A stretch of 64,000 bases of DNA. Origin: Sandaracinobacteroides saxicola. Lineage in GTDB: Bacteria > Pseudomonadota > Alphaproteobacteria > Sphingomonadales > Sphingomonadaceae. The stretch is from the NCBI RefSeq assembly GCF_014117445.1, contig NZ_CP059851.1, forward strand, positions 3,088,501-3,152,500, given 5' to 3'. The position numbers and the translations under genes are program-made. Shown in pieces: positions 10,188 through 55,739 of this stretch (within the stretch, counting starts at the first letter, position 1; each line of letters starts with the position of its first letter). The notes below the pieces were generated by a model. That model did not search any database. It was not told the DNA's origin and saw only the letters and a program-made list of their open reading frames with translations.

Positions 10188-10263
10188 GGGGACGTAGCTC
10201 AGATGGGAGAGCGCAGCAATCGCACTGCTGAGGTCAGGGGTTCGATCCCCCTCGTCTCCACCA
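10188..10263 (+). tRNA. tRNA-Ala (anticodon CGC)
   Basis: A complete 76-nt cloverleaf can be drawn. The acceptor GGGGACG pairs with CGTCTCC, including the G3:U70 wobble that identifies alanine tRNAs. The D-stem is GCTC/GAGC and the anticodon stem CAGCA/TGCTG with loop ATCGCAC, giving anticodon CGC (codon GCG). The T-stem is AGGGG/CCCCT with TTCGATC in the loop. The discriminator is A at 10260 and CCA is encoded. It is the only tRNA I see here, and it sits at the left edge of the mosaic region with toxin-antitoxin and HEPN genes. Confidence 0.95.
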
Positions 10264-23572: not shown

Positions 23573-24018
23573 GTCCGTCCGGTCGAGCCGAACCCGCCCG
23601 CGCCGCGCGCCGTGTCATCCAGAGGCGCCACCCGCCACGCTGCACGCGTCACCGGCGCCAGCAGCAGCTGCGCGATCCGCATGCCGCGCGTGATGGTGAA
23701 GGGCGTGTCGGAAATATTGGCCAGGATCACCTTCACCTCGCCGCGATAGTCGCTGTCGATCGTCCCCGGCCCGTTCGGCACGATCAGCCCGGCATTCAGC
23801 GCCAGGCCCGAGCGCGCCCGCACCTGCACTTCATAGCCCGCCGGCACCGCCATCCGCAGGCCGGTCGGCACCGCCGCCCGCGCGCCGGGCATCAGCACGA
23901 AATCCCCCTCCACCGCCGCCACCGCATCCATTCCCGCGGCCCCTTCGGTGGCATAGGCCGGCAGCGGCAGGCCCAGCCCATGCGGCAGCACCTCCACCGC
24001 GATCTCAACCGAGCTCAT
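23569..24018 (-). CDS. dut: deoxyuridine 5'-triphosphate nucleotidohydrolase (dUTPase)
   Basis: 149 residues, the normal length of trimeric dUTPase. Hydrolyses dUTP to dUMP, keeping uracil out of DNA and feeding dTMP synthesis. All five motifs are visible: [55 protein letters not shown] and the C-terminal [11 protein letters not shown] arm. The ATG at 24018 lies 14 bp inside the 3' end of coaBC, giving [10 protein letters not shown]. Pairing with coaBC is a conserved alphaproteobacterial arrangement. Confidence 0.95.
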
Positions 24019-25255
24019 CAGCGATCCCCGCCGCCAGCCGCGCCGCCACATCGGCCTTCGGCATCTCGTCCCAGCTCTCCACGCCGCCGGCGCGCACTAC
24101 ATGCACCCGGTTGTTCGCCCCGCCCATCACGTCGCCCGACACGTCATTGGCAACGATCCAGTCCGCGCCCTTCCGCTCGAGCTTCGCCCGGGCATGCGCG
24201 ATGACATCGTCGGTCTCCGCCGCGAACCCCACCACCAGGCGGGGTCGCGCCGGCCCCGCCGCCGCAACGCTCGCCAGGATATCGGGATTCTCCACCAGCC
24301 GCAGCTGCGGCGGGCCATCCCTCCCCTTCTTCAGCTTGCCGGCGGCCGCCTCCACATGCCAGTCCGCCACCGCCGCCACCATCACCGCCACATCGGCGGG
24401 CAGCGCTCCCATCGTCGCCGCCAGCATCTCCCGCGCGCTCTCCACATCCACCCGCGTCACGCCCGCCGGCGTCGGCAGCGCCACCGGCCCCGCCACCAGC
24501 GTCACCCGCGCCCCCAGCGCCGCGCACGCCGCCGCGATCGCAAACCCCTGCCGCCCGGAGGAACGATTGGCCAGATAGCGCACCGGATCGATCGCCTCAT
24601 GCGTCGGCCCCGCCGTCACCACCACATGCCGCCCCGCCAGCGCAGGCGCGTTGAGCGCTTCTCTCCCCTCCCCTTCAGGGGAGGGGCCGGGGGTGGGGCC
24701 GGGGGTGGGGACGAGCGCAGCAAGGGCCGCCTCGATCGCCTCCGCAATCACCCCCACCTCCGGCAACCGCCCCGGCCCGAACTCGCCGCACGCCATCGCG
24801 CCGACATCCGGCTCCATCACCGTCACGCCCCGCGCCCGCAGCGTCGCCACATTCGCCACCGTCGCCGCATGCTGCCACATGCGCACATTCATCGCCGGCA
24901 CCGCGAACACCGGCTTGTCGGTCGCCAGCAGCAGCGTGGTCGCCAGGTCATCGGCGATGCCCGCCGCCATCCGCGCCAGCAGGTTCGCCGTCGCCGGGCA
25001 CACCACCACCAGATCGGCCTGCCGGCTGAGCTGGATATGCCCCATCTCCGCCTCGTCCTTCAGGCTGAACAAATCCTCATACACCGGCGATTCGCTGAGC
25101 GCCGCCAGGCTCATCGGCGTCACGAACTGCTTCGCCGCCGCCGTTACCACCGGCGTCACATGGCCCCCCCGCGTCCGCACCAGCCGGATCAGCTCCAGTG
25201 CCTTGTAGGCGGCGATCCCGCCGCCCACGATCAGAAGAATGCGCCTGCCCTGCAT
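24005..25255 (-). CDS. coaBC: bifunctional phosphopantothenoylcysteine decarboxylase/ligase
   Basis: 416 residues. CoaB condenses 4'-phosphopantothenate with cysteine (CTP-dependent) and CoaC decarboxylates the product, two steps of coenzyme A synthesis. The CoaC domain (1-180) shows the flavin-binding [20 protein letters not shown], the PAMNVRMW substrate clamp and [10 protein letters not shown] with the active cysteine. The CoaB domain (about 205-416) begins [20 protein letters not shown] and has NRSSGRQG and ENPDILASV. The linker (about 182-198) is [18 protein letters not shown], which is translated from a GC-rich palindromic repeat (24664-24709) inserted in frame. Confidence 0.95.
24664..24709. 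repeat. GC-rich palindrome with tandem tail inside coaBC
   Basis: CCCCTCCCCT (24664-24673) and AGGGGAGGGG (24676-24685) form a perfect 10-bp stem with a 2-base loop. Two tandem copies of CCGGGGGTGGGG follow (24686-24709). The same stem plus one tail copy occurs in uvrA (32473-32530), and in inverted orientation in the dipeptidase gene (44464-44500). Confidence 0.85.
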
Positions 25256-25265
25256 GGCCCACGCC

Positions 25266-26801
25266 TTACGCGCCGAACGCCGCCGCGCCAAGCAGCCCCA
25301 GCAACACCCCCAGCGCGACGCCCATCATGGTCGCCCCCCAGGCGAACGGCCGCCGCACCGGCAGCGGCGGCAGCGGGATCGTCGGCGGCGCCGCGCCATC
25401 GGGCGGCAGCAGCCGCTCCGCCCGCCGCAGCAGCGTCGGCAGCCGCCTGAGCGTGCCCAGCCGTTTCAGCAGCCCGTCCGCCAGCGCCGCCTCCGGCCCC
25501 AGCTCGGCGCGGATCCAGTCGCGGATATAGGGTTCGGCCGCCGCCCACATGTTCACCTCGCGGTCCAGCGCCAGCGCCACGCCCTCCACCATCACCATCG
25601 TCTTCTGCAACAGCAGCAGGTGCGGCTGCACCCCCATGTCGAAACTGCGCGTGATCGCGAACAGCCCGTCCAGCAGGTTGGCGATGCTGATATCCTTGGC
25701 ATTCTTGCCGCGAATGGGTTCCCCCACCGCCCGCAGCGCCGTCGCGAACTCCCCCACATCATGATGCGGCGGCACATAGCCCGCCTCGAAATGAATCTCC
25801 GCCACCCGCGCGTAATTGCCAACAAGAAGCCCGTAGAGGATCTCCGCCAGATAAACCCGCGCCCGCCGATCCAGCCGCCCCATGATGCCGAAATCAATGA
25901 GCACCAAAATGCCATCGGGGCGGACGAACAGATTGCCCTGGTGCAGGTCGGCATGGAAAAAACCGCTGCCGATCGCCTGCCGCAGGAACCCGCGCACCAG
26001 GCTCGTCGCCAGCGCCTTGCGGTCGATCCCCGCCGCCTCGATGGCGGCAACATCCGTCAGCTTGATGCCCTCCACCCATTCCAGCGCCAGCGTCCGGCGT
26101 GTCGTCCATTCCCAACGCACCGCCGGCACCATCACCCCGGGTTCGCCGCGCACCGCATCCGCCAGTTCGCTGGCGTTCCCCGCCTCGCGCCGCAAATCCA
26201 GCTCCGCCAGCGTCCATTGCCGGAAGGTCGCGATCACCAGCCGCGGCTTCAGCCGCGCGAACTCGCCGCCCAGCCGCTCCAGCTGGGTCGCCGCCCAAGC
26301 ATAGTCCGCCAGCGCCGCCTCGAACTGCGCCTCCACGCCGGGCCGCAGCAGCTTCAGCGCCACCACGCTGCCATCATGGGCCACCGCCCGATGCACCTGC
26401 GCGATGGAGGCGGCGCCGACCGGCGTTTCATCGATGGAGGCGAAATGCACCCGCCAATCACCCCCCAGCGCCCGGTCGAACGCCGCCGACACCTCGTCCC
26501 ACGGCGCCGGCGGCAGCGAATCCTGCAACCGCAGCAGATCGCGCGCCACATCCGCGCCGATCAGGTCGGGCCGTGTCGCCAGCGCCTGCCCCAGCTTGAT
26601 CGCCGCCGGCCCGCACGCCTGCAATCCACCGGCGAAATCGGGTTTCGCCGGCGCACCGGCGCCGAACCGCAGCAACCGCGCCGCCACCCGGCCGGCCAGC
26701 GGTACATCAGCATGCCCCTCGAACGGGCGCAGGGCCCCGCGCGCCGCCAGCCGCCGCAGGTCGCCCAGCAGGCGCAGCCCATGACGCAGGTCAGCCAGCA
26801 A
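25266..26801 (-). CDS. ubiB: UbiB-family atypical kinase for ubiquinone biosynthesis
   Basis: 511-residue ABC1/ADCK/UbiB protein, an atypical ATPase/kinase-like membrane protein required for aerobic coenzyme Q synthesis. The hallmark KxGQ motif is in AAIKLGQALATRPDL (residues about 67-81). The alanine-rich nucleotide loop is GAASIAQVHRAVAHDG. The catalytic-loop region is FHADLHQGNLFVRPDG, followed by IDFGIMGRL. Two C-terminal hydrophobic segments (AWGATMMGVALGVLLGLLGA region) anchor it in the membrane. It starts one base from the ubiE stop and ends 10 bp from coaBC, so it belongs to the ubiE-ubiB-coaBC-dut series. Confidence 0.95.
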   Translation of the reverse strand: MLADLRHGLRLLGDLRRLAARGALRPFEGHADVPLAGRVAARLLRFGAGAPAKPDFAGGLQACGPAAIKLGQALATRPDLIGADVARDLLRLQDSLPPAPWDEVSAAFDRALGGDWRVHFASIDETPVGAASIAQVHRAVAHDGSVVALKLLRPGVEAQFEAALADYAWAATQLERLGGEFARLKPRLVIATFRQWTLAELDLRREAGNASELADAVRGEPGVMVPAVRWEWTTRRTLALEWVEGIKLTDVAAIEAAGIDRKALATSLVRGFLRQAIGSGFFHADLHQGNLFVRPDGILVLIDFGIMGRLDRRARVYLAEILYGLLVGNYARVAEIHFEAGYVPPHHDVGEFATALRAVGEPIRGKNAKDISIANLLDGLFAITRSFDMGVQPHLLLLQKTMVMVEGVALALDREVNMWAAAEPYIRDWIRAELGPEAALADGLLKRLGTLRRLPTLLRRAERLLPPDGAAPPTIPLPPLPVRRPFAWGATMMGVALGVLLGLLGAAAFGA

Positions 26802-30366: not shown

Positions 30367-33264
<2,898 letters not shown>

Positions 33265-38291: not shown

Positions 38292-39065
38292 TCATGCCGC
38301 CCGCGCCGCCGGCGCACCGATGATTTCACGCGCCAGGGCCAGATAGGCCTCCGACCCCGGACAGCGCAGGTCATAGAGCAACGCCGGCAGCCCGTGGCTC
38401 GGCGCCTCCGACAGGCGCACATTGCGCGGGATCACCGTGCGCAACACCTGGCTCCCCAACGCCGCGCGCACGTCCGCCTCGACCTGGCCCGACAGGCTGT
38501 TGCGCCGGTCCACCATGGTCATCAACACGCCCAGCAGGGCCAGCCGCGGATTCCCGCGTGACCGAACTTGTTCAATGGTTTGAAGGAGTTGCGTCAACCC
38601 TTCCAGCGCATAATATTCCGCCTGCAATGGGATCAGCACCGAATCGACCGCCATCAGCGCATTCAGCGTCAACAGGCCCAGCGACGGCGGACAATCGATC
38701 AGTACCCAATCGGGCAGGACCGCATCGGCCAGCACCGCCTTCAGCCGTTCGGTGCGGCGCGGCACCTCCACCAGCTCGACCTCGGCGCCTGAAAGCTGCT
38801 CATGGGCCGGCACCACCGACAGTCCTGGAACCAGGGCGGGCCGCGAGGCGTCCGCGAGCGTGGCGGTGCCTGTCAGAAGCTCGTAGCTGGAGGGTGAACG
38901 CTGATCGCGCGCGATGCCCACGCCGGTTGACGCATTGCCCTGCGGGTCAAGGTCGATCAGCAAAGTCGAAGCCCCGCTGGCAGCCAGGGCGGTGGCCAGG
39001 TTGACCGCGGTGGTCGTCTTTCCGACCCCCCCCTTCTGGTTGGCGATGGCAACGCGCCGCATCAA
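38292..39065 (-). CDS. parA: chromosome-partitioning ATPase ParA
   Basis: 257 residues. Walker-type ATPase that drives segregation of ParB-parS complexes along the nucleoid. The deviant Walker A is ANQKGGVGKTTTAVNLATAL near the N-terminus, the switch I region LLIDLDPQGNASTGVG, and Walker B PDWVLIDCPPSLGLLTLNAL. There is no N-terminal helix-turn-helix, so it is the small chromosomal type. The start codon overlaps the rsmG stop. Confidence 0.96.
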   Translation of the reverse strand: MMRRVAIANQKGGVGKTTTAVNLATALAASGASTLLIDLDPQGNASTGVGIARDQRSPSSYELLTGTATLADASRPALVPGLSVVPAHEQLSGAEVELVEVPRRTERLKAVLADAVLPDWVLIDCPPSLGLLTLNALMAVDSVLIPLQAEYYALEGLTQLLQTIEQVRSRGNPRLALLGVLMTMVDRRNSLSGQVEADVRAALGSQVLRTVIPRNVRLSEAPSHGLPALLYDLRCPGSEAYLALAREIIGAPAARAA

Positions 39066-39676
39066 CCCGTCTTTCGTCTGACATCGGTGGCGAGAAGGAT
39101 TCGCGCCTCCGGCTCCGTCATACTCGGCGCAAGGGTCACGTCAAAGCGATAGCGGCGCTGCGCATCGGATATTTCGGCCGCATGGCGGACGCCCTTGGGC
39201 AGCACCCAGCGCGTATCGGGCCGGGCGTGCGACAAACCCCAATCGAACAGGCGTTCCACCGGCGCGCATGCGCGGGCGGTCAGGATGTCCGGCCGCATCG
39301 GCGCCAGGGCTTCGACACGGGCGCAATGGACCTGCACATGGGTCAATCCCATCTCGGCAACGGCTGCGGCCAGAAAATCGCATTTCTTGCCAACCGATTC
39401 GATCAGATCGAAGCGGCTGCCATGATCCATCGCGGCCAGCACCAGCGAAGGAAAACCGCCGCCAGCCCCCATGTCCACCCAATGCTGGCCCGCCGGCGTC
39501 AGCGCTGCCAACTGCGCTGAATCGGCGAAATGGCGATGCCAAATGGCCGGCAAGGTCGATGGTGCGACCAGGTTCATGCGCCCTTGCCACTCGACGAGCA
39601 GGGCGGCGTAGCGGTGCAGCCGATCCAATGTTCCACGTGGAACATTGAACCGGTCCGCAAACGCCTCCGGTGTCAC
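39062..39676 (-). CDS. rsmG: 16S rRNA (guanine-527-N7)-methyltransferase RsmG (GidB)
   Basis: 204 residues, standard RsmG length. SAM-dependent m7G527 methylation of 16S rRNA; loss in other bacteria gives low-level streptomycin resistance. Motifs: [40 protein letters not shown] (SAM loop) and [20 protein letters not shown]. The start overlaps the mnmG stop (ATGA). A perfect parS palindrome is embedded in the coding region, where it encodes FNVPRG near the N-terminus. Confidence 0.96.
39629..39644. promoter_or_regulatory. parS site (perfect palindrome) inside rsmG
   Basis: TGTTCCACGTGGAACA is a perfect 16-bp palindrome of the bacterial parS class bound by ParB. It lies in the first 50 bp of the rsmG coding sequence, 0.6 kb from parA. 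Location near parAB and two more identical copies make the call strong. Confidence 0.92.
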
Positions 39677-41529
39677 GCCGCCTCGGCCAGCGCATTGCGG
39701 CGCAGCCAGGCGATGAGGGCGGTGATGGCGGCAGGCGTGACGCCGTTCACTCGGGATGCCTGCCCGATCGTGGCCGGTGCCGCCCGGCCCAGACGCTCGA
39801 TCATCTCGGTGGACAGGCCCGCGACGCGCGCAAAGTCCATGTCCCGTGGCAGTCGCAGCGTCTCATCCCGATGCAGGGCGGCAACGTCCGATTCCTGTCG
39901 GCTGAGATAGACGACATAGCGCGCATCGGTTGCGATGCGGTCCGCGATGGCAGCGGGAATGGCCGCGAAACGCGGATCGGCCCGGCCAAGCAGTGCCCAA
40001 TCGACGGTGGGAAAGCGCAGCCAGTCCCAAGCGCTTCGTTGCTGACCATCGTTGCGGATTTCGGCGCCGTTGTCGATGAGCGCGGCGGGATTAAGAATCG
40101 TCTCGCGTGACAGCGTTTCCGCGCCCTTCAGCGCCGCCTGGGTATCCGCCCATTGCGCTGCCCGACGGGCACCGACCAGGCCCATTGACAGGCCCAACGG
40201 TGTGAGTCGGGCGTCGGCATTGTCCGCGCGAAGTCGCAGGCGATATTCGGCGCGGGAGGTGAACATGCGATAGGGCTCGCTGACGCCCTGTGTGGTCAGA
40301 TCGTCGATCATCACCGCGAGATAGCTGCTGGCGCGATCGAGCGGCAGCGGCCCCAAGCCGGACGCGGCGCGCGCGGCGTTCGTTCCGGCGACCAGACCTT
40401 GCGCGGCGGCTTCCTCATAACCGGTCGTGCCGTTGATCTGCCCCGCCAGCCACAGCCCCGGCATCGCCCGCAGTTGCAGGCTGCTGTCGAGCGCACGCGG
40501 GTCGATATGGTCATATTCGACCGCATAGCCCGGTTCGACAATCTCCACCCGTTCGAGGCCGGCGATGGTCCGGAGCATCGCCAACTGAACATCCACGGGC
40601 AGGCTGGTTGAAATGCCGTTGGGATAGACCAGCGGATCATCGACGCCTTCGGGCTCCAGGAAGATCTGGTGGCCGTCGCGGTCGCCGAAGCGCATGACCT
40701 TGTCTTCGACGGATGGGCAGTAACGCGGCCCGACGCCATCGATTCGGCCGGCATACATCGGCGCGCGATGGATGTTCTGCCGGATGATGGCATGCGTGGC
40801 GGCGTTGGTGCGCGTGATGAAACAGGACAGCTGCGGCAGCGCGGCAGCGGTGGTGAAGCTGGAGAAGAAGCTCGGCTGGCTGTCGCCCGGCTGTTCCTCC
40901 AGGCCGCTCCAGTCGATGGTGCGGCCATCGAGACGCGGCGGTGTGCCGGTTTTCAGACGGCCCATCGGAAGGTTCAGCGCGCGCAGCTGTTGGGCAAGTC
41001 GATGCGCGCCGCCCTCACCAACACGACCGCCGATCTTCTGCGATTCGCCACGGTGCATGATGCCGCCAAGAAAGGTTCCCGTGGTAAGGACAACAGCGGC
41101 GGCCGACATCGCGCCGACACTGGTCTCTATGCCCACAACGCGCTGCCCGGCATGGCTCAGCGCCAGCACTTCGGCTTCGACGATGTCGATCCGTCCCTGC
41201 TCGCGAAGCAGGGCGCGTGTCGCGGCGGCGAAATGCTTGCGGTCGGCCTGACTGCGCGGGCCCTGCACCGCCGGGCCTCGGCTGCGGTTCAGCAGTCGGA
41301 ACTGGATCGCGGAAGCATCAGCCGCGCGCCCCATGATGCCATCGAGCGCGTCGATCTCCCGAACCAAATGCCCCTTGCCCAGCCCGCCGATGGCGGGATT
41401 GCAGCTCATCTGACCGATATTGTCGGCGCGAAGCGTCACCAGGATCACATGCGCGCCCAGCCGGGCCGCGGCGGCCGCCGCCTCCGTCCCCGCATGGCCG
41501 CCGCCGATGATGATGACATCGCATTTCAT
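39673..41529 (-). CDS. mnmG: tRNA uridine 5-carboxymethylaminomethyl modification enzyme MnmG (GidA)
   Basis: 618-residue FAD enzyme that with MnmE installs the cmnm5 group on wobble U34 of tRNAs. The dinucleotide-binding start is [20 protein letters not shown]. Also visible are [51 protein letters not shown] and [20 protein letters not shown]. The C-terminal helical domain that contacts tRNA is complete. Transcribed leftward between mnmE and rsmG, overlapping rsmG by 4 bp. Confidence 0.97.
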
Positions 41530-41584
41530 CGGCCCGCCCTAATTCACCCAGGCGATTCGGTCAAAGCTGTCTGTCCGCCATCCA

Positions 41585-41600
41585 TGTTCCACGTGGAACA
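41585..41600. promoter_or_regulatory. parS site 2 (perfect)
   Basis: TGTTCCACGTGGAACA, identical to the rsmG copy, in the 98-bp gap between mnmE and mnmG. Confidence 0.92.
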
Positions 41601-41610
41601 TCGGTCTCAT

Positions 41611-41626
41611 TGTTCCACGTGGAACA
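41611..41626. promoter_or_regulatory. parS site 3 (perfect)
   Basis: A third identical TGTTCCACGTGGAACA, only 10 bp after site 2, so the two centres are 26 bp apart. It ends 1 bp before the mnmE stop codon region. Closely spaced tandem parS sites would load ParB at high density. Confidence 0.92.
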
Positions 41627-41627
41627 G

Positions 41628-42920
41628 TCATTTGCCGATGCAGAAGCGGCTGAAAATCTGGTCGAGCACCGCCTCGGCATCGACTGCTCCGGTCAGGCGC
41701 CCCAAGGCGCGCACGGCCAAGCGCAGGGACTCGGCGCGCAGGACGGGATCCGGCTGTCGCTGAGCGGCACGCAAATCCTCCCGCGCCGTGGACAGCCAGT
41801 GGACATGTCGCGCATGGGTAACAAGCGCCGGCTCGCCCGGCGGCATCTGCGCGCGTGCCCAGGCAATCAGCCTGTCGAGCAGCGAATCCAGCCCGGCACC
41901 GGTCGTCGCCGAGAGCGCCACATGGCTGCCGTGGTCGCCCGGCCTCTCTTCGCTCAGATCGATCTTGTTGCGAATCTTCAGCACGGAACCGGGGACATCG
42001 ATCGACTCTTCGCCCAGCAACAGGATCAAATCAGCGGAGGCGGCGCGGGCGCGGGCGCGGGCGATGCCTTCGGCCTCGACCGGGTCCGTGCTGTCGCGCA
42101 ACCCGGCGGTGTCGAGCACGATGGCCGGGACGCCACCGAGGTTGAGGGGGACTTCGATGATGTCCCGCGTCGTTCCGGCGTGGGGCGTGACAATGGCGAC
42201 ATCGCGCGCCGCGAGCGCGTTGACGAGGCTGGACTTGCCGGCATTGGGGGGACCGATGACGGCGATGGTCAGGCCGTCGCGGACACGAGCGCCGCTGTCG
42301 GCGCTGGCAAGGGCCGAGTCGAGTTCAGCCAGCAGCGGCGCGACGCGATGCCGGACCGTGGCAAGCCCCGCAGCGACATCGGCTTCCTCCTCAGCGAAGT
42401 CGAGATCGGCTTCCGCGTCGGCGAGGAGGGTGAGGAGGTGATGGCGCCAGCTCTCGGCCTTGGCACGCAGGCGGCCGCTGGCGTTGGTCAATGCCTGGTC
42501 GCGCTGCGCGGCGGTCTCGGCGACGATCAAGTCCGAGAGGGCTTCGGCCTGGGTGAGGTCGATGCGGCCGTTGAGGAAGGCACGACGGGTGAATTCGCCG
42601 GCTTCGGCGGGATGGAGGCCCGGCATCGCCGACAGGGCATCGAGGACACCGGCGACAACGGCCGGGCTGCCATGAAGATGAAGTTCGACGCAGTCTTCGC
42701 CGGTGAAGCTGGCCGGGGCCGGGAACCAGAGCGTGAGCGCGGTGTCGAGCAGGGTCCCGGTGCGGGGGTCGTGCAGGCGGCGGAGGCTGGTGTGACGGGG
42801 AGCGGGCAAGGGACGGTTGGTCAGCGCTTTGAGGGTCGGGCCGGCTGCCGGGCCGCTGAGCCGGATGAGGGCGACGCCGGCGGGCGGGGTGCCGCTGCCC
42901 AGCGCGAAGATGGTGGACAT
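41628..42920 (-). CDS. mnmE: tRNA modification GTPase MnmE (TrmE)
   Basis: 430 residues; potassium-activated GTPase partner of MnmG. N-terminal folate-binding domain: IFALGSGTPPAGVALIRLSG and DCVELHLHGSPAVVAGVLDA. G domain: G1 GPPNAGKSSLVNALAAR, G2 GTTRDIIEVPL, G3 DTAGLRDSTDPVE and G4 IRNKIDL. The invariant C-terminal cysteine is in the ending FCIGK. The stop codon of the preceding DUF6489 gene abuts its start. Slightly shorter than E. coli MnmE (454), as usual in this order. Confidence 0.97.
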   Translation of the reverse strand: MSTIFALGSGTPPAGVALIRLSGPAAGPTLKALTNRPLPAPRHTSLRRLHDPRTGTLLDTALTLWFPAPASFTGEDCVELHLHGSPAVVAGVLDALSAMPGLHPAEAGEFTRRAFLNGRIDLTQAEALSDLIVAETAAQRDQALTNASGRLRAKAESWRHHLLTLLADAEADLDFAEEEADVAAGLATVRHRVAPLLAELDSALASADSGARVRDGLTIAVIGPPNAGKSSLVNALAARDVAIVTPHAGTTRDIIEVPLNLGGVPAIVLDTAGLRDSTDPVEAEGIARARARAASADLILLLGEESIDVPGSVLKIRNKIDLSEERPGDHGSHVALSATTGAGLDSLLDRLIAWARAQMPPGEPALVTHARHVHWLSTAREDLRAAQRQPDPVLRAESLRLAVRALGRLTGAVDAEAVLDQIFSRFCIGK

Positions 42921-43184
42921 TCAGTCCTTCTTGCCCCCGTCTTTCTTGCCCATGCCTGCCGCTGACCAGAAGAGTTGCTGCATCTTTTCAAGGCCTTCGG
43001 ACATGCCGGGGAGGCCGCCGGTCCAAGCGCGGGTCATGCGGTCGATGTCGGCCGGCGTGATGCCCTCGGTCATCAGCGCCTGGGCACGGGCCAGCCAGGC
43101 GTCATGCAGTGGCGTGACGTCTGGCAGGCCCAGGAAGGCGCGGGCTTCGGCCGGGGTGCAATCGATGTCGAAGGTGATCTTCAT
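42921..43184 (-). CDS. DUF6489-family protein
   Basis: 87 residues: MKITFDIDCTPAEARAFLGL, PDVTPLHDAWLARAQALMTE, then a helical stretch ending with lysine-rich KKDGGKKD. This small protein family is found beside mnmE and rho in alphaproteobacteria; some members are annotated as polyhydroxyalkanoate granule-associated, but function is unproven. ATG 43184 matches the conserved MKI-DIDCTP start. The stop codon directly abuts the mnmE ATG, indicating co-translation. Confidence 0.82.
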   Translation of the reverse strand: MKITFDIDCTPAEARAFLGLPDVTPLHDAWLARAQALMTEGITPADIDRMTRAWTGGLPGMSEGLEKMQQLFWSAAGMGKKDGGKKD

Positions 43185-43271: not shown

Positions 43272-44552
43272 TCATTTGGCGGTCGGGACGAGGGTTGCCG
43301 TGGTGAGGGGCGCGTCCTTCTGGCCGCGGGCATGGGCTTCGTTGGCGCGCATCACGCGCAGCAGATTCTCACCGGCGAGCTTGCGCAGGTTCGCGTCGCT
43401 CCAGCCGCGGCGGGCGAGCTCGGCGAGAAGCGCGGGGTAGCGGTCGACGCCCTCGAGGCCGACGGGGGTGATGTCGATGCCGTCATAGTCGCCACCGAGG
43501 CCGACATGATCGTGGCCGGCGACCTTCGCGGCATGCTCGATGTGGTTGGCGACCTCGGCGAGCGTGGTGACGGGGCGCGGGTTGGCGGCGTCCCAGGCGT
43601 CGGTCGCGGCCTTGATGCGGTCGGGCTGGCCGAGGAAGCGGGATTTCGCCCGGGCGGCTTCGGCCTCGCGCGCGGCGCCCCAGTCCATGCGCGCCTGGCT
43701 GAGGAACTGCGGCACGAAGGTGATCATGATGACGCCGCCGTTGGCCGGCAGGCGGGCGAGGATGTCGTCGGGCACGTTGCGGGGATGGTCGCAGAGCGCG
43801 CGGACGCTGCTGTGGCTGAAGATCACCGGCGTCTTGCTGATGTCCAGCACGTCGGCCATCACCTTCGGGCTGACATGGCTGATGTCGATCAGCATGCCGA
43901 GCCGGTTCATCTCGGCGACGACGCTTTTGCCGAAGGGGGCGAGGCCGTTGTGGCGCGGGGTGTCGTTCGAACTGTCCGCCCAGTCGATGGTGGCGGTGTG
44001 GGTGAGCGTCATGTAACGCGCGCCGGCGTCGAAGAATTGCCGCAGGACGCCGAGGCTGTTGTCGATCTGGTGGCCGCCTTCGATGCCGATCAGGCTGGCG
44101 ACCCGGCCGGCGCGGTGGATGCGCACGATGTCGTCGGCGGTGCGGGCGAGTTCGAGGTCCTTCGGATAACGTCGCACCATGGCGTGAACGAGGTCGATCT
44201 GTTCGGCGGTGAGCTTGACCGCCGCCGGCCCGGTGATGTCGGCGGGGATCCAGACGCTCCAGAACTGCGCGCCGACGCCGCCGGCGCGCAGCCGCGGGAT
44301 GTCGGTGTGGCGCGGTTGTGGCAGCGCGCGGCTGTCGGCCGTCAGGTCCTGGGTGTAGCGGGCATCGCCATGGGCCTTGCGCAGCGCCCAGGGCCAGTCG
44401 TTGTGGCCGTCGATGAGGGGGGTGGTGCGGAGCAGGCGGGCGATGCGGGTGGCTGTCTGGGGTGACTCCCCCACCCCCGGCCCCTCCCCTGAAGGGGCGG
44501 GGAGTGCGGGCGATGCGGCCGCAAGGAGGAGGGCGAGGAGGAGGGGTTTCAT
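43272..44552 (-). CDS. M19-family membrane dipeptidase
   Basis: 426 residues with a signal peptide (MKPLLLALLLAAASPALP). Zinc dipeptidase of the renal dipeptidase family, acting on dipeptides in the periplasm. Metal motifs: LIDGHNDWPWALR (H-x-D), LIGIEGGHQIDN, RYMTLTHTATIDWADSSNDT, LIDISHVSPKVM, IFSHSSVRAL and GLGGDYDGID. Residues about 17-30 ([14 protein letters not shown]), just after the signal peptide, are translated from an inserted palindromic repeat. The gene overlaps the stop of the M20 peptidase gene (ATGA), so the two peptidases form an operon. Confidence 0.93.
   Translation of the reverse strand: MKPLLLALLLAAASPALPAPSGEGPGVGESPQTATRIARLLRTTPLIDGHNDWPWALRKAHGDARYTQDLTADSRALPQPRHTDIPRLRAGGVGAQFWSVWIPADITGPAAVKLTAEQIDLVHAMVRRYPKDLELARTADDIVRIHRAGRVASLIGIEGGHQIDNSLGVLRQFFDAGARYMTLTHTATIDWADSSNDTPRHNGLAPFGKSVVAEMNRLGMLIDISHVSPKVMADVLDISKTPVIFSHSSVRALCDHPRNVPDDILARLPANGGVIMITFVPQFLSQARMDWGAAREAEAARAKSRFLGQPDRIKAATDAWDAANPRPVTTLAEVANHIEHAAKVAGHDHVGLGGDYDGIDITPVGLEGVDRYPALLAELARRGWSDANLRKLAGENLLRVMRANEAHARGQKDAPLTTATLVPTAK
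44464..44500. repeat. GC-rich palindromic repeat inside the dipeptidase gene
   Basis: CCCCTCCCCT and AGGGGCGGGG form a stem with one mismatch. The tail reads as the reverse complement of CCGGGGGTGGGG. It is the coaBC/uvrA element in the opposite orientation to the gene, and so is translated as a different peptide (SGEGPGVG). Confidence 0.8.
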
Positions 44553-54540: not shown

Positions 54541-54704
54541 GGCCCCCTCCGCCGCCGCTGCGCGGCGAGTCGCTCCCCCGTGCCGGGGGAGAGGCATGAG
54601 CAGCTACGGCTCGATGTGCTTGCACCCACCGTGTGCATCGGGCTCGCCTTCGCTCGCACCCACCCCCTGCCCCTCCCTTCTCCGCTGCGCGGGAGGGAGG
54701 GGAG
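54541..54704. repeat. two GC-rich hairpin repeats between hemE and hemJ
   Basis: The first unit (54541-54593) holds GCCGCTGCGCGGC and CTCCCCCGTGCCGGGGGAG hairpins. The second (54654-54704) holds GCACCCACCCCCTGCCCCTC and CCGCTGCGCGGGAGGGAGG, related to the repeats at 48309 and 58312. The interval 54482-54704 has no gene. The elements extend the gap between two genes that are otherwise neighbours. Confidence 0.7.
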
Positions 54705-55739
54705 TTAAGCACGGAGGTGGGTAAGCAGGGCTTCGACGTGGGGGATGGGGGTTTGTTGCAGGATGCCGTGGCCGAGGTTGAAGATGTGGGGGCGGCCGGC
54801 GAGGGCTTCGCAGATGCGGGTGATGGCGGCGGTCAGGGGCTCGCCGCCGGCCAGCAGGGCGAGGGGGTCGAGGTTGCCCTGCACGGGGAGGTCGGCGGGC
54901 AGGTTGGCGTGGGCCCAGGCGGGATCGAGGGCTTCGTCGAGGCCGACGGCGTCGACGTGCGTTTCGCGGGCGTAGCGGGGGAGTTTCTCGCCGGCGCCCT
55001 TGGGGAAGCCGATGACGGGGATGTGGGGGTGGCGGGCTTTCAGCTGGGCGACGAGTGCGGCGGTGGGGGCGATGACCCAGCGGTCGAACTCGGACGGGGC
55101 AAGGCTGCCCGACCAGCTGTCGAACAGTTGCAGGGCTTCGGCGCCGGCCATGACCTGGCCGGAGAGATAATCGAGGGTTGTCGCGCTGATGCGGTCGATG
55201 AGGGCCTGGAAGGCGGCGGGGTCGCGGTAGGCAAGGGTGCGGGCGGGGGCCTGCTCCTTGGTGCCATGGCCGGCGACCATGTAGGTGGCGACGGTCCAGG
55301 GCGAGCCGGCGAAGCCGATGAGGGTGACGTGGGGCGGGAGCGCGGCGGCGACCTTGGCGACGGTCTGGTAGATGGGATCGAAATGGTGGAGGGCGGGGGT
55401 GAGGCCGTCGATCCAGGCGCCGGGATCATGGGGGGTGAGCGGGGGCGTGAGGCGGGGGCCTTCGCCTTCGGTGAAGGTGAGCTGCTGGCCGAGCGCGTGG
55501 GGGACGATGAGGATGTCGGAAAACAGGATGGCGGCATCCATGCCGAAGCGGCGGATGGGTTGCAGGGTGATCTCGGCCGCGGCGTCGCTGTCATAGACCA
55601 GGTTGAGGAAGCTGCCTTTCTCGGCGCGCAGCGCGCGATATTCGGGGAGGTAGCGGCCGGCCTGGCGCATCAGCCAGAGCGGGGGGGTGGGCAGGATCTG
55701 GCCGGCCAGCGTCGCGAGGATGGGTTTCATGCCCGCCAT
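54705..55739 (-). CDS. hemE: uroporphyrinogen decarboxylase
   Basis: 344 residues. Removes four acetate carboxyls from uroporphyrinogen III to give coproporphyrinogen III in haem synthesis. Signatures: PPLWLMRQAGRYLPEYRALR, the invariant active-site block AAILFSDILIVPHALG, GFAGSPWTVATYMVAG and FNLGHGILQQTPIPHVEALL. An internal ATG at 55730 is an alternative start. In Caulobacter the chromosome origin lies next to hemE, and the same upstream neighbour (the ppsR-type gene) is present here. Confidence 0.96.
   Translation of the reverse strand: MAGMKPILATLAGQILPTPPLWLMRQAGRYLPEYRALRAEKGSFLNLVYDSDAAAEITLQPIRRFGMDAAILFSDILIVPHALGQQLTFTEGEGPRLTPPLTPHDPGAWIDGLTPALHHFDPIYQTVAKVAAALPPHVTLIGFAGSPWTVATYMVAGHGTKEQAPARTLAYRDPAAFQALIDRISATTLDYLSGQVMAGAEALQLFDSWSGSLAPSEFDRWVIAPTAALVAQLKARHPHIPVIGFPKGAGEKLPRYARETHVDAVGLDEALDPAWAHANLPADLPVQGNLDPLALLAGGEPLTAAITRICEALAGRPHIFNLGHGILQQTPIPHVEALLTHLRA

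Follow-up and report, generated by a model that had tools for sequence, protein, structure and literature searches.

Palindromic repeats that lie in frame within many unrelated protein genes, where they are read as added peptides, have been described as Rickettsia palindromic elements (RPEs; PMC10969869). These units are about 150 bp long, and the part of that paper used here describes no strand rule for them. The CGTC REPs, as far as the account of Di Nocera et al. (2013, PMC3733652) is followed here, have a stem of 8–9 bp, a loop of 4–5 nt and no dedicated transposase. In its treatment of CGTC REPs, the same source regards the movement of REPs without such an enzyme as an open question, and it mentions that, in other species, REPs also lie within uvrA and within genes for tRNA synthetases and repair. 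In-frame intragenic palindromic repeats are already known from both RPEs and GTAG/CGTC REPs, and the surprise of the repeat presented below is its strand polarity. Elements of the IS200/IS605 family insert without target duplication. With this family (IS608, ISDra2) and with the REP/RAYT systems, as described in the parts of PMC5371812 and PMC6006769 drawn on here, the present repeat shares a hairpin and perhaps also a short preferred flank and a strand-following orientation. A search of one open-access library found no strand rule for REPs and, among the papers listed, no description of this repeat.

The repeat was encountered in a stretch of 64,000 nucleotides (the window, C1:3088501–3152500) of a genome made of a single contig of 3,364,212 bases (G000). 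The earlier note had proposed three in-frame insertions within 20 kb, and these copies could indeed be located in the genes of CoaBC, UvrA and a dipeptidase. The features concerned, numbered from the first base of the window, are the following:

24005–25291, minus strand: coaBC (phosphopantothenoylcysteine decarboxylase/ligase), with Pfam and PDB matches, true start uncertain
24663–24710, plus strand: 48-nt element (36 nt and a tandem 12-nt tail) in the two-domain linker of coaBC, antisense to the gene
30367–33264, minus strand: uvrA, 965 aa
32474–32530, plus strand: 57-nt long-loop element in uvrA, read as 19 residues, antisense to the gene
39000–43000, no strand: change of GC-skew sign, negative on the left and positive on the right, the flanking copies being opposite in orientation
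43272–44552, minus strand: M19 membrane dipeptidase gene, 426 aa (Pfam PF01244, E 1.8e-114)
44464–44468, minus strand: 3′ flank GAGTC on the element strand, which fits nnGTC
44469–44504, minus strand: 36-nt element in the M19 dipeptidase gene, sense to the gene
54658–54704, minus strand: 47-nt subtype copy with the tail CAGGGGGTGGGT, directly downstream of the gene at 54705–55739 and outside it

The dipeptidase copy reads CTCCCCGCCCCTTCAGGGGAGGGGCCGGGGGTGGGG on the minus strand, i.e. CTCCCCGCCCC-TTCA-GGGGAGGGG-CCGGGGGTGGGG, with one mismatch in the 5′ arm; its predicted DNA fold also pairs part of the tail (z −1.9 and −2.3). It is translated in frame into 12 residues that include PSGEGPGVG, in agreement with the SGEGPGVG peptide previously placed after a signal peptide, and the insert looks to be located just after such a peptide, as judged by eye. 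The homologues of this dipeptidase, the best of which come from a mixture of gammaproteobacterial and sphingomonad genomes, are shorter at the insert site, but the signal-peptide region varies too much there for a length to be fixed. The copy had been thought to be inverted relative to its gene. It is in fact sense to it, whereas the copies in coaBC and uvrA run antisense to their genes; its inversion relative to these two copies, on the chromosome, is real. The exact tail CCGGGGGTGGGG is found four times in the window, at 24687 and 24699 (plus strand, in tandem), at 32519 (plus) and at 44469 (minus), and the coaBC insert is read as 15 residues. The three sites share one repeat at the level of the family, but not of the form, the UvrA copy being a 57-nt long-loop variant and the CoaBC copy a 48-nt variant with a tandem tail.

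The main form of the element, 36 nt long, combines a 9-bp hairpin, whose loop has 4 nt, with a G-rich tail of 12 nt, CCGGGGGTGGGG. All 26 copies of this form could be aligned without gaps, 24 of them being 36 nt long and two 48 nt long with a tandem tail; the resulting consensus is CTCCCCTCCCCTTCAGGGGAGGGGCCGGGGGTGGGG, followed by a looser (A/C)CGTC. The stem-loop consensus, CCCCTCCCC-TTCA-GGGGAGGGG, corrects the 10-bp stem initially described to a common hairpin of 9 bp with a TTCA loop. Standard pairs fill 98.3% of the pair cells in the 26 copies and covariation is little, with one pair altered on both sides; at the sequence level, such figures reflect conservation more than they would prove pairing. 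Predicted folding of single copies shows a modest gain over shuffled sequences (z −0.9 to −2.3). The bases preceding the stem are nn(T/A/C)CT. Besides the 36-nt main form, there is a 57-nt form whose loop is longer, there are forms of 51–54 nt in which a second hairpin precedes the G-rich tail, and there is a 47-nt form that ends in GGGTGGGT and mostly continues with GCGAGC; the first hairpin is common to all these subtypes. Inside genes, the variants other than the main form measure 47 to 60 nt. The two-hairpin subtype, with GACTCGGC...GCCGAG between hairpin and tail, is seen among other places at G000:C1:259063, 2841467 and 718429; its coding copies are 51, 51 and 54 nt long (n=3) and its intergenic copies 53 nt (n=5). 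A search of the window against Rfam gave a tRNA at 10188–10260 as its sole match, and no match to the element above the gathering score.

When up to 3 mismatches are allowed, the 22-mer AGGGGAGGGGCCGGGGGTGGGG is matched 36 times in the genome, against once for a reversed-pattern control; two of the 36 are tandem-tail repeats of another match. A covariance model built on the 26-copy alignment detected at least 48 sites at E<0.01, a number that is possibly low, 150 of the 3714 first-look candidates having been scored. In the length analysis of these 48 copies, the tail was parsed in all but one and three 36-nt rows were corrected by eye. Single units dominate in this genome, with one close inverted pair (2670900/2670959) among the 48 sites. 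Beyond it, the 22-mer, with 2 mismatches allowed at most, is present in 53 of the 149 sampled family genomes, the control giving 1 match in all of them. The dispersed character supposed from the window is thus borne out by this genome-wide search, relatives have shorter sites as detailed below, and the family is a REP-like, non-autonomous palindromic repeat common to part of the Sphingomonadaceae.

Eighteen of the 48 copies lie inside predicted genes, where about 41 would be expected (p 2.8e-14 for so few) from a coding fraction of 85.6% measured on 610,504 sampled bases with a simple codon-usage gene finder, in a sample that counts overlapping stretches twice and whose stretches were chosen partly around copies. 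Four further copies overlap a gene end. According to Pfam and PDB matches, the hosts include ValRS, LeuRS, UvrA, CoaBC, MurD, ArgJ and the dipeptidase, together with a nitrogenase-type oxidoreductase with a PCP_red domain, a molybdopterin oxidoreductase, an FAD-binding protein, an enoyl-CoA hydratase and a chorismate-binding/aminotransferase IV protein. Several of them are conserved enzymes that PDB or Pfam matches cover on either side of the insert; Pfam gave no match for one host of 369 aa. Five copies are found near protein ends (in a TatA/B/E-like protein, MoaE, a metallophosphoesterase, an isochorismatase and a second nitrogenase-type oxidoreductase) and could be extensions or start-site errors. 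The genome sequence also bears chlorophyll-synthesis-type genes.

In 17 of the 18 coding copies, the core length is a multiple of 3. When the 36-mers are set aside, the proportion is 8/9 in coding against 2/12 in noncoding copies (Fisher p 0.0019), divisibility being measured for these other forms on the core and not on the inserted unit. The reading phases of the coding copies are distributed as 9/6/2/1/0, so that two phases hold 15 of the 18, and the phase used once belongs to a divergent subtype copy. This divisibility and these uneven phases suggest that selection has left those coding copies whose peptides can be tolerated, rather than that the element is built to avoid stops. The stop avoidance suggested earlier is correct for the consensus, which is stop-free in 5 of the 6 frames, but coding copies are not favoured (18/48 against about 41 expected). 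The tally of coding against intergenic copies, which the earlier note had set as its own refuting test, shows coding copies to be rarer than chance, and the strong form of that idea fails.

Homologous sites were compared by protein length with 13 family genomes of other genera. In ValRS, the interval from a conserved W to the (L)xKHYP block is 18 residues long in this genome and, at 6 residues, 12 shorter in 11 of these 13, a difference equal to one inserted 36-nt unit; it has 7 residues (11 fewer than here) in G008, and G001 carries another insert. LeuRS is exactly 12 residues shorter in 3 of the 13 (G003, G011 and G010) and 11–16 residues shorter in the rest, because the length of the loop varies. 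The UvrA loop is also of variable length among relatives, and the net gain is inexact for this reason.

The G-rich tail lies on the G-poorer strand in 47 of the 48 copies, according to local GC skew (p 3.5e-13). The lone exception is the 35-nt copy at 2670900, which belongs to the close inverted pair with 2670959. This rule is independent of gene strand, all 16 tabulated intragenic copies conforming on both gene strands. The occurrence of the repeat in both orientations, as first read from the window, therefore holds with respect to the genes but not on the chromosome, where 47 of the 48 copies follow the local strand asymmetry. Below 1.75 Mb, all 23 copies are on the minus strand, and above it 17 are on the plus and 8 on the minus strand. 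Seven of these 8 minus copies sit where the local skew is also reversed, and orientation thus tracks local skew and not the present replichore. Skew-reversed segments with locally oriented copies are found at 2.70–2.73, 2.97 and 3.13–3.28 Mb; such segments require inversions or another cause. More generally, the skew is a mosaic of positive and negative stretches throughout the second half of the contig, a pattern suggestive of inversions.

The skew itself is unusually strong, about 0.2 in many sampled stretches of the genome. At third codon positions it amounts to +0.28 and +0.36 (plus and minus genes) in positive regions and to −0.40 and −0.26 in negative ones, these regions having been sorted by the same skew that was tested. 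Since its sign is the same on both gene strands, it follows the chromosome strand and not transcription; at codon positions 1 and 2 the skew follows the gene strand. We infer that it represents replication asymmetry, fork direction being deduced from the skew and the position of dnaA. Composition or decay would put the G-rich strand of the element on the G-richer strand, and this is where control motifs are found: the counts on the G>C strand against the other are 138:4 for G-quadruplex motifs, 1355:208 for GGGGG, 2373:262 for near-miss tails and 26:1 for GGGGAGGGG outside the element (sampled stretches, sites with an absolute skew <0.05 being dropped). The elements lie the opposite way.

No target duplication of 3–6 nt was found in any of the 26 aligned copies, and a 2-nt flank match occurs in 2 of them, compared with 1.7 by shuffling. 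The 3′ flank on the element strand tends towards nnGTC, with G in 21, T in 19 and C in 21 of the 26 copies, and the full GTC at +3 to +5 in 15. This flank is less conserved than the core (core mean majority 0.97) and could be the degenerate end of a longer unit. A Y1 transposase domain (Y1_Tnp, PF01797) has no match in this genome at E≤0.001 and is present in 24 of the 149 family genomes. Among 12 Y1 loci of relatives, none is clearly flanked by the element, with one weak hairpin match in L408. The Y1 match of G106 (L407, C1:2623036–2623391) consists of two neighbouring pieces that lie in different frames, and the gene is perhaps decayed.

The comparison with the described systems can now be made more precise. 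Like RPEs, the element is inserted in frame in conserved protein genes (18 of the 48 copies), but it is 36 nt long against the about 150 bp given for RPEs (PMC10969869, a comparison by description and not by sequence). It resembles the GTAG/CGTC REPs by a stem and loop within the limits given for CGTC REPs in the part of PMC3733652 considered here, by its dispersion, by inverted pairs in relatives and by intragenic copies in uvrA and tRNA synthetase genes. It differs from them in that no GTAG or CGTC tag is present at the foot of the stem, that only some copies have a (A/C)CGTC-like flank, and then past the 12-nt tail, and that single units, not inverted dimers, predominate here. It has not been filed in the GTAG/CGTC superfamilies because these stem-foot tags are absent, the consensuses being compared by description in what that source gives of them. 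A MITE is also different, the main form being one hairpin with a one-sided tail, devoid of terminal inverted repeats and of duplication. In contrast to a RAYT-mobilised REP, no Y1/RAYT gene clearly flanked by the repeat was found, either in its own genome (0) or at the 12 loci of relatives. The likeness to IS200/IS605 and REP/RAYT finds its limit in the same enzyme, with no Y1 transposase in the genome and an element far too short to encode one; cleavage, target and strand choice are presumed for the element.

We lean slightly towards a 36-nt REP-like unit that inserts next to nnGTC without target duplication, in a strand-specific manner relative to replication, and is tolerated in frame. The element would enter as a fixed unit of 36 nt, or 12 codons, leaving no target-site duplication, with nnGTC as the favoured neighbour of the element strand (as seen from the C-rich strand, GACnn on its 5′ side). 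It would do so on one specific strand relative to replication, the C-rich strand probably being in the lagging-strand template. As 36 nt keep the frame and 5 of the 6 frames are stop-free, insertions in loops and linkers could survive as peptides rich in Pro, Gly, Ser and Glu. The agent may be an HUH/Y1-type enzyme acting in trans, either lost or unrecognised, or another replication-coupled process. Replication-coupled single-strand insertion is favoured since the hairpin, the lack of duplication, the flank preference and an orientation that seems to go with replication are reminiscent of IS200/IS605; we infer from this likeness that the strand bias is made at insertion, on the lagging template and by such an agent. 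The weak point of this single-strand insertion model is the enzyme, given that there is no Y1_Tnp in the genome.

An ordinary intragenic REP is a possible alternative, to which we give distinctly less credit: a selfish repeat comparable to RPEs and GTAG/CGTC REPs, which a RAYT-like enzyme would have spread in the past and which loops would tolerate, its orientation reflecting the history of this genome rather than the chemistry of insertion. The REPs reported elsewhere within uvrA, tRNA synthetase genes and repair genes (PMC3733652, in the part cited above) are in line with it, as are the presence of the family in 53 of 149 genomes, mostly as inverted pairs in seven relatives, and the higher frequency of Y1 in genomes with at least 10 copies (4/8 against 20/141 of the others, p 0.024, with a threshold chosen afterwards). 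However, singletons and not inverted pairs dominate here, and this explanation alone leaves the orientation of 47 of the 48 copies, against the compositional trend, unexplained.

In the seven relatives, the orientation rule is absent overall, 74 of 149 pooled copies conforming once poly-G junk is removed. By genome, the skew test gives 13/26 in G149, 22/40 in G106, 18/43 in G044, 3/6 in G003, 3/7 in G123, 3/6 in G059 and 3/10 in G042, the G044 count being inflated by poly-G stretches that were left out of the pooled value. In G044 (L362, L368 and L376), these long poly-G/poly-C stretches look like assembly artefacts. As many as 102 of the 149 copies of the seven relatives occur in inverted pairs within 150 bases, an arrangement in which no net orientation is possible. 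When the absolute skew is at least 0.05, 7 of 7 unpaired copies conform (5 loci, threshold chosen afterwards), against 11 of 20 paired ones; the unpaired copies are a hint, and only that, of support for the rule beyond this genome. The orientation rule is a one-genome result, unproven in relatives. The skew of the sampled loci of relatives is mostly <0.06, with the exceptions of L292 of G003 (0.12) and L342 of G106 (0.18). This last, strongly skewed locus contains three unpaired copies, all oriented as in G000, and one inverted pair. In G149 (L270–L289), the conserved flanks of the repeat (ttctg... and ...agtcgccncgagc) are longer than in G000.

Selection could also set the orientation, if the tail were harmful as a G-quadruplex in the lagging-strand template, or if the element were a polar chromosome signal, for which KOPS and Chi provide analogies. 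The consistent presence of the G-rich tail on one strand would suit this improbable explanation, but the other G-quadruplex motifs lie on the opposite strand (138:4), where G-quadruplexes are evidently not avoided. Moreover, the copies of the skew-reversed segments keep the local orientation and not that of the replichore, which a signal that present-day forks read should not tolerate if these segments are inversions. A preference of the integration machinery for a target motif commoner on one strand is more improbable still. The skew is strong (about 0.2), and the complement of the flank is more frequent in the direction of the rule for GAC (10601:7225), GACGT (490:269) and GACGG (1900:573). 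These ratios, 1.5 to 3.3, are nevertheless far below 47:1, and GACTC is evenly distributed (80:81). Chance GC-rich low-complexity sequence with spurious frames, which a window of 67% GC with many overlapping open frames might bring to mind, was ruled out to near certainty by the 36 genome matches against 1 for the reversed-pattern control and by conserved-enzyme hosts matched on both sides of the insert.

The 47:1 strand rule, which runs against composition and is independent of gene strand, points to replication-coupled single-strand insertion as a process testable in one genome, and the fixed length of 36 nt explains how essential enzymes can take up a selfish hairpin in frame. Oriented copies would, if this is confirmed, mark inverted chromosome segments. 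A bolder version, which we regard as doubtful, is that of a frame-neutral 12-codon unit devoid of transposase and with near-absolute strand specificity at the fork, the copies of which would form a fossil record of past fork direction and later inversions, and which would repeatedly have supplied essential enzymes with disordered peptides of the same two kinds.

Other inserts were noticed at two of the host sites. The ValRS of G001 (L318) has, at the site of the 36-nt element, a different near-perfect palindrome of about 80 nt, in frame, and the UvrA linker contains palindromic in-frame inserts in G012, G005 and G002 (L291, L298 and L301), which belong to three other genera. Judging from these sequences, some protein loops, such as the ValRS and UvrA sites, appear to have received insertions repeatedly. 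For recB of two Xanthomonas species, the part of PMC3733652 cited here mentions inserts that coincide in a similar way.
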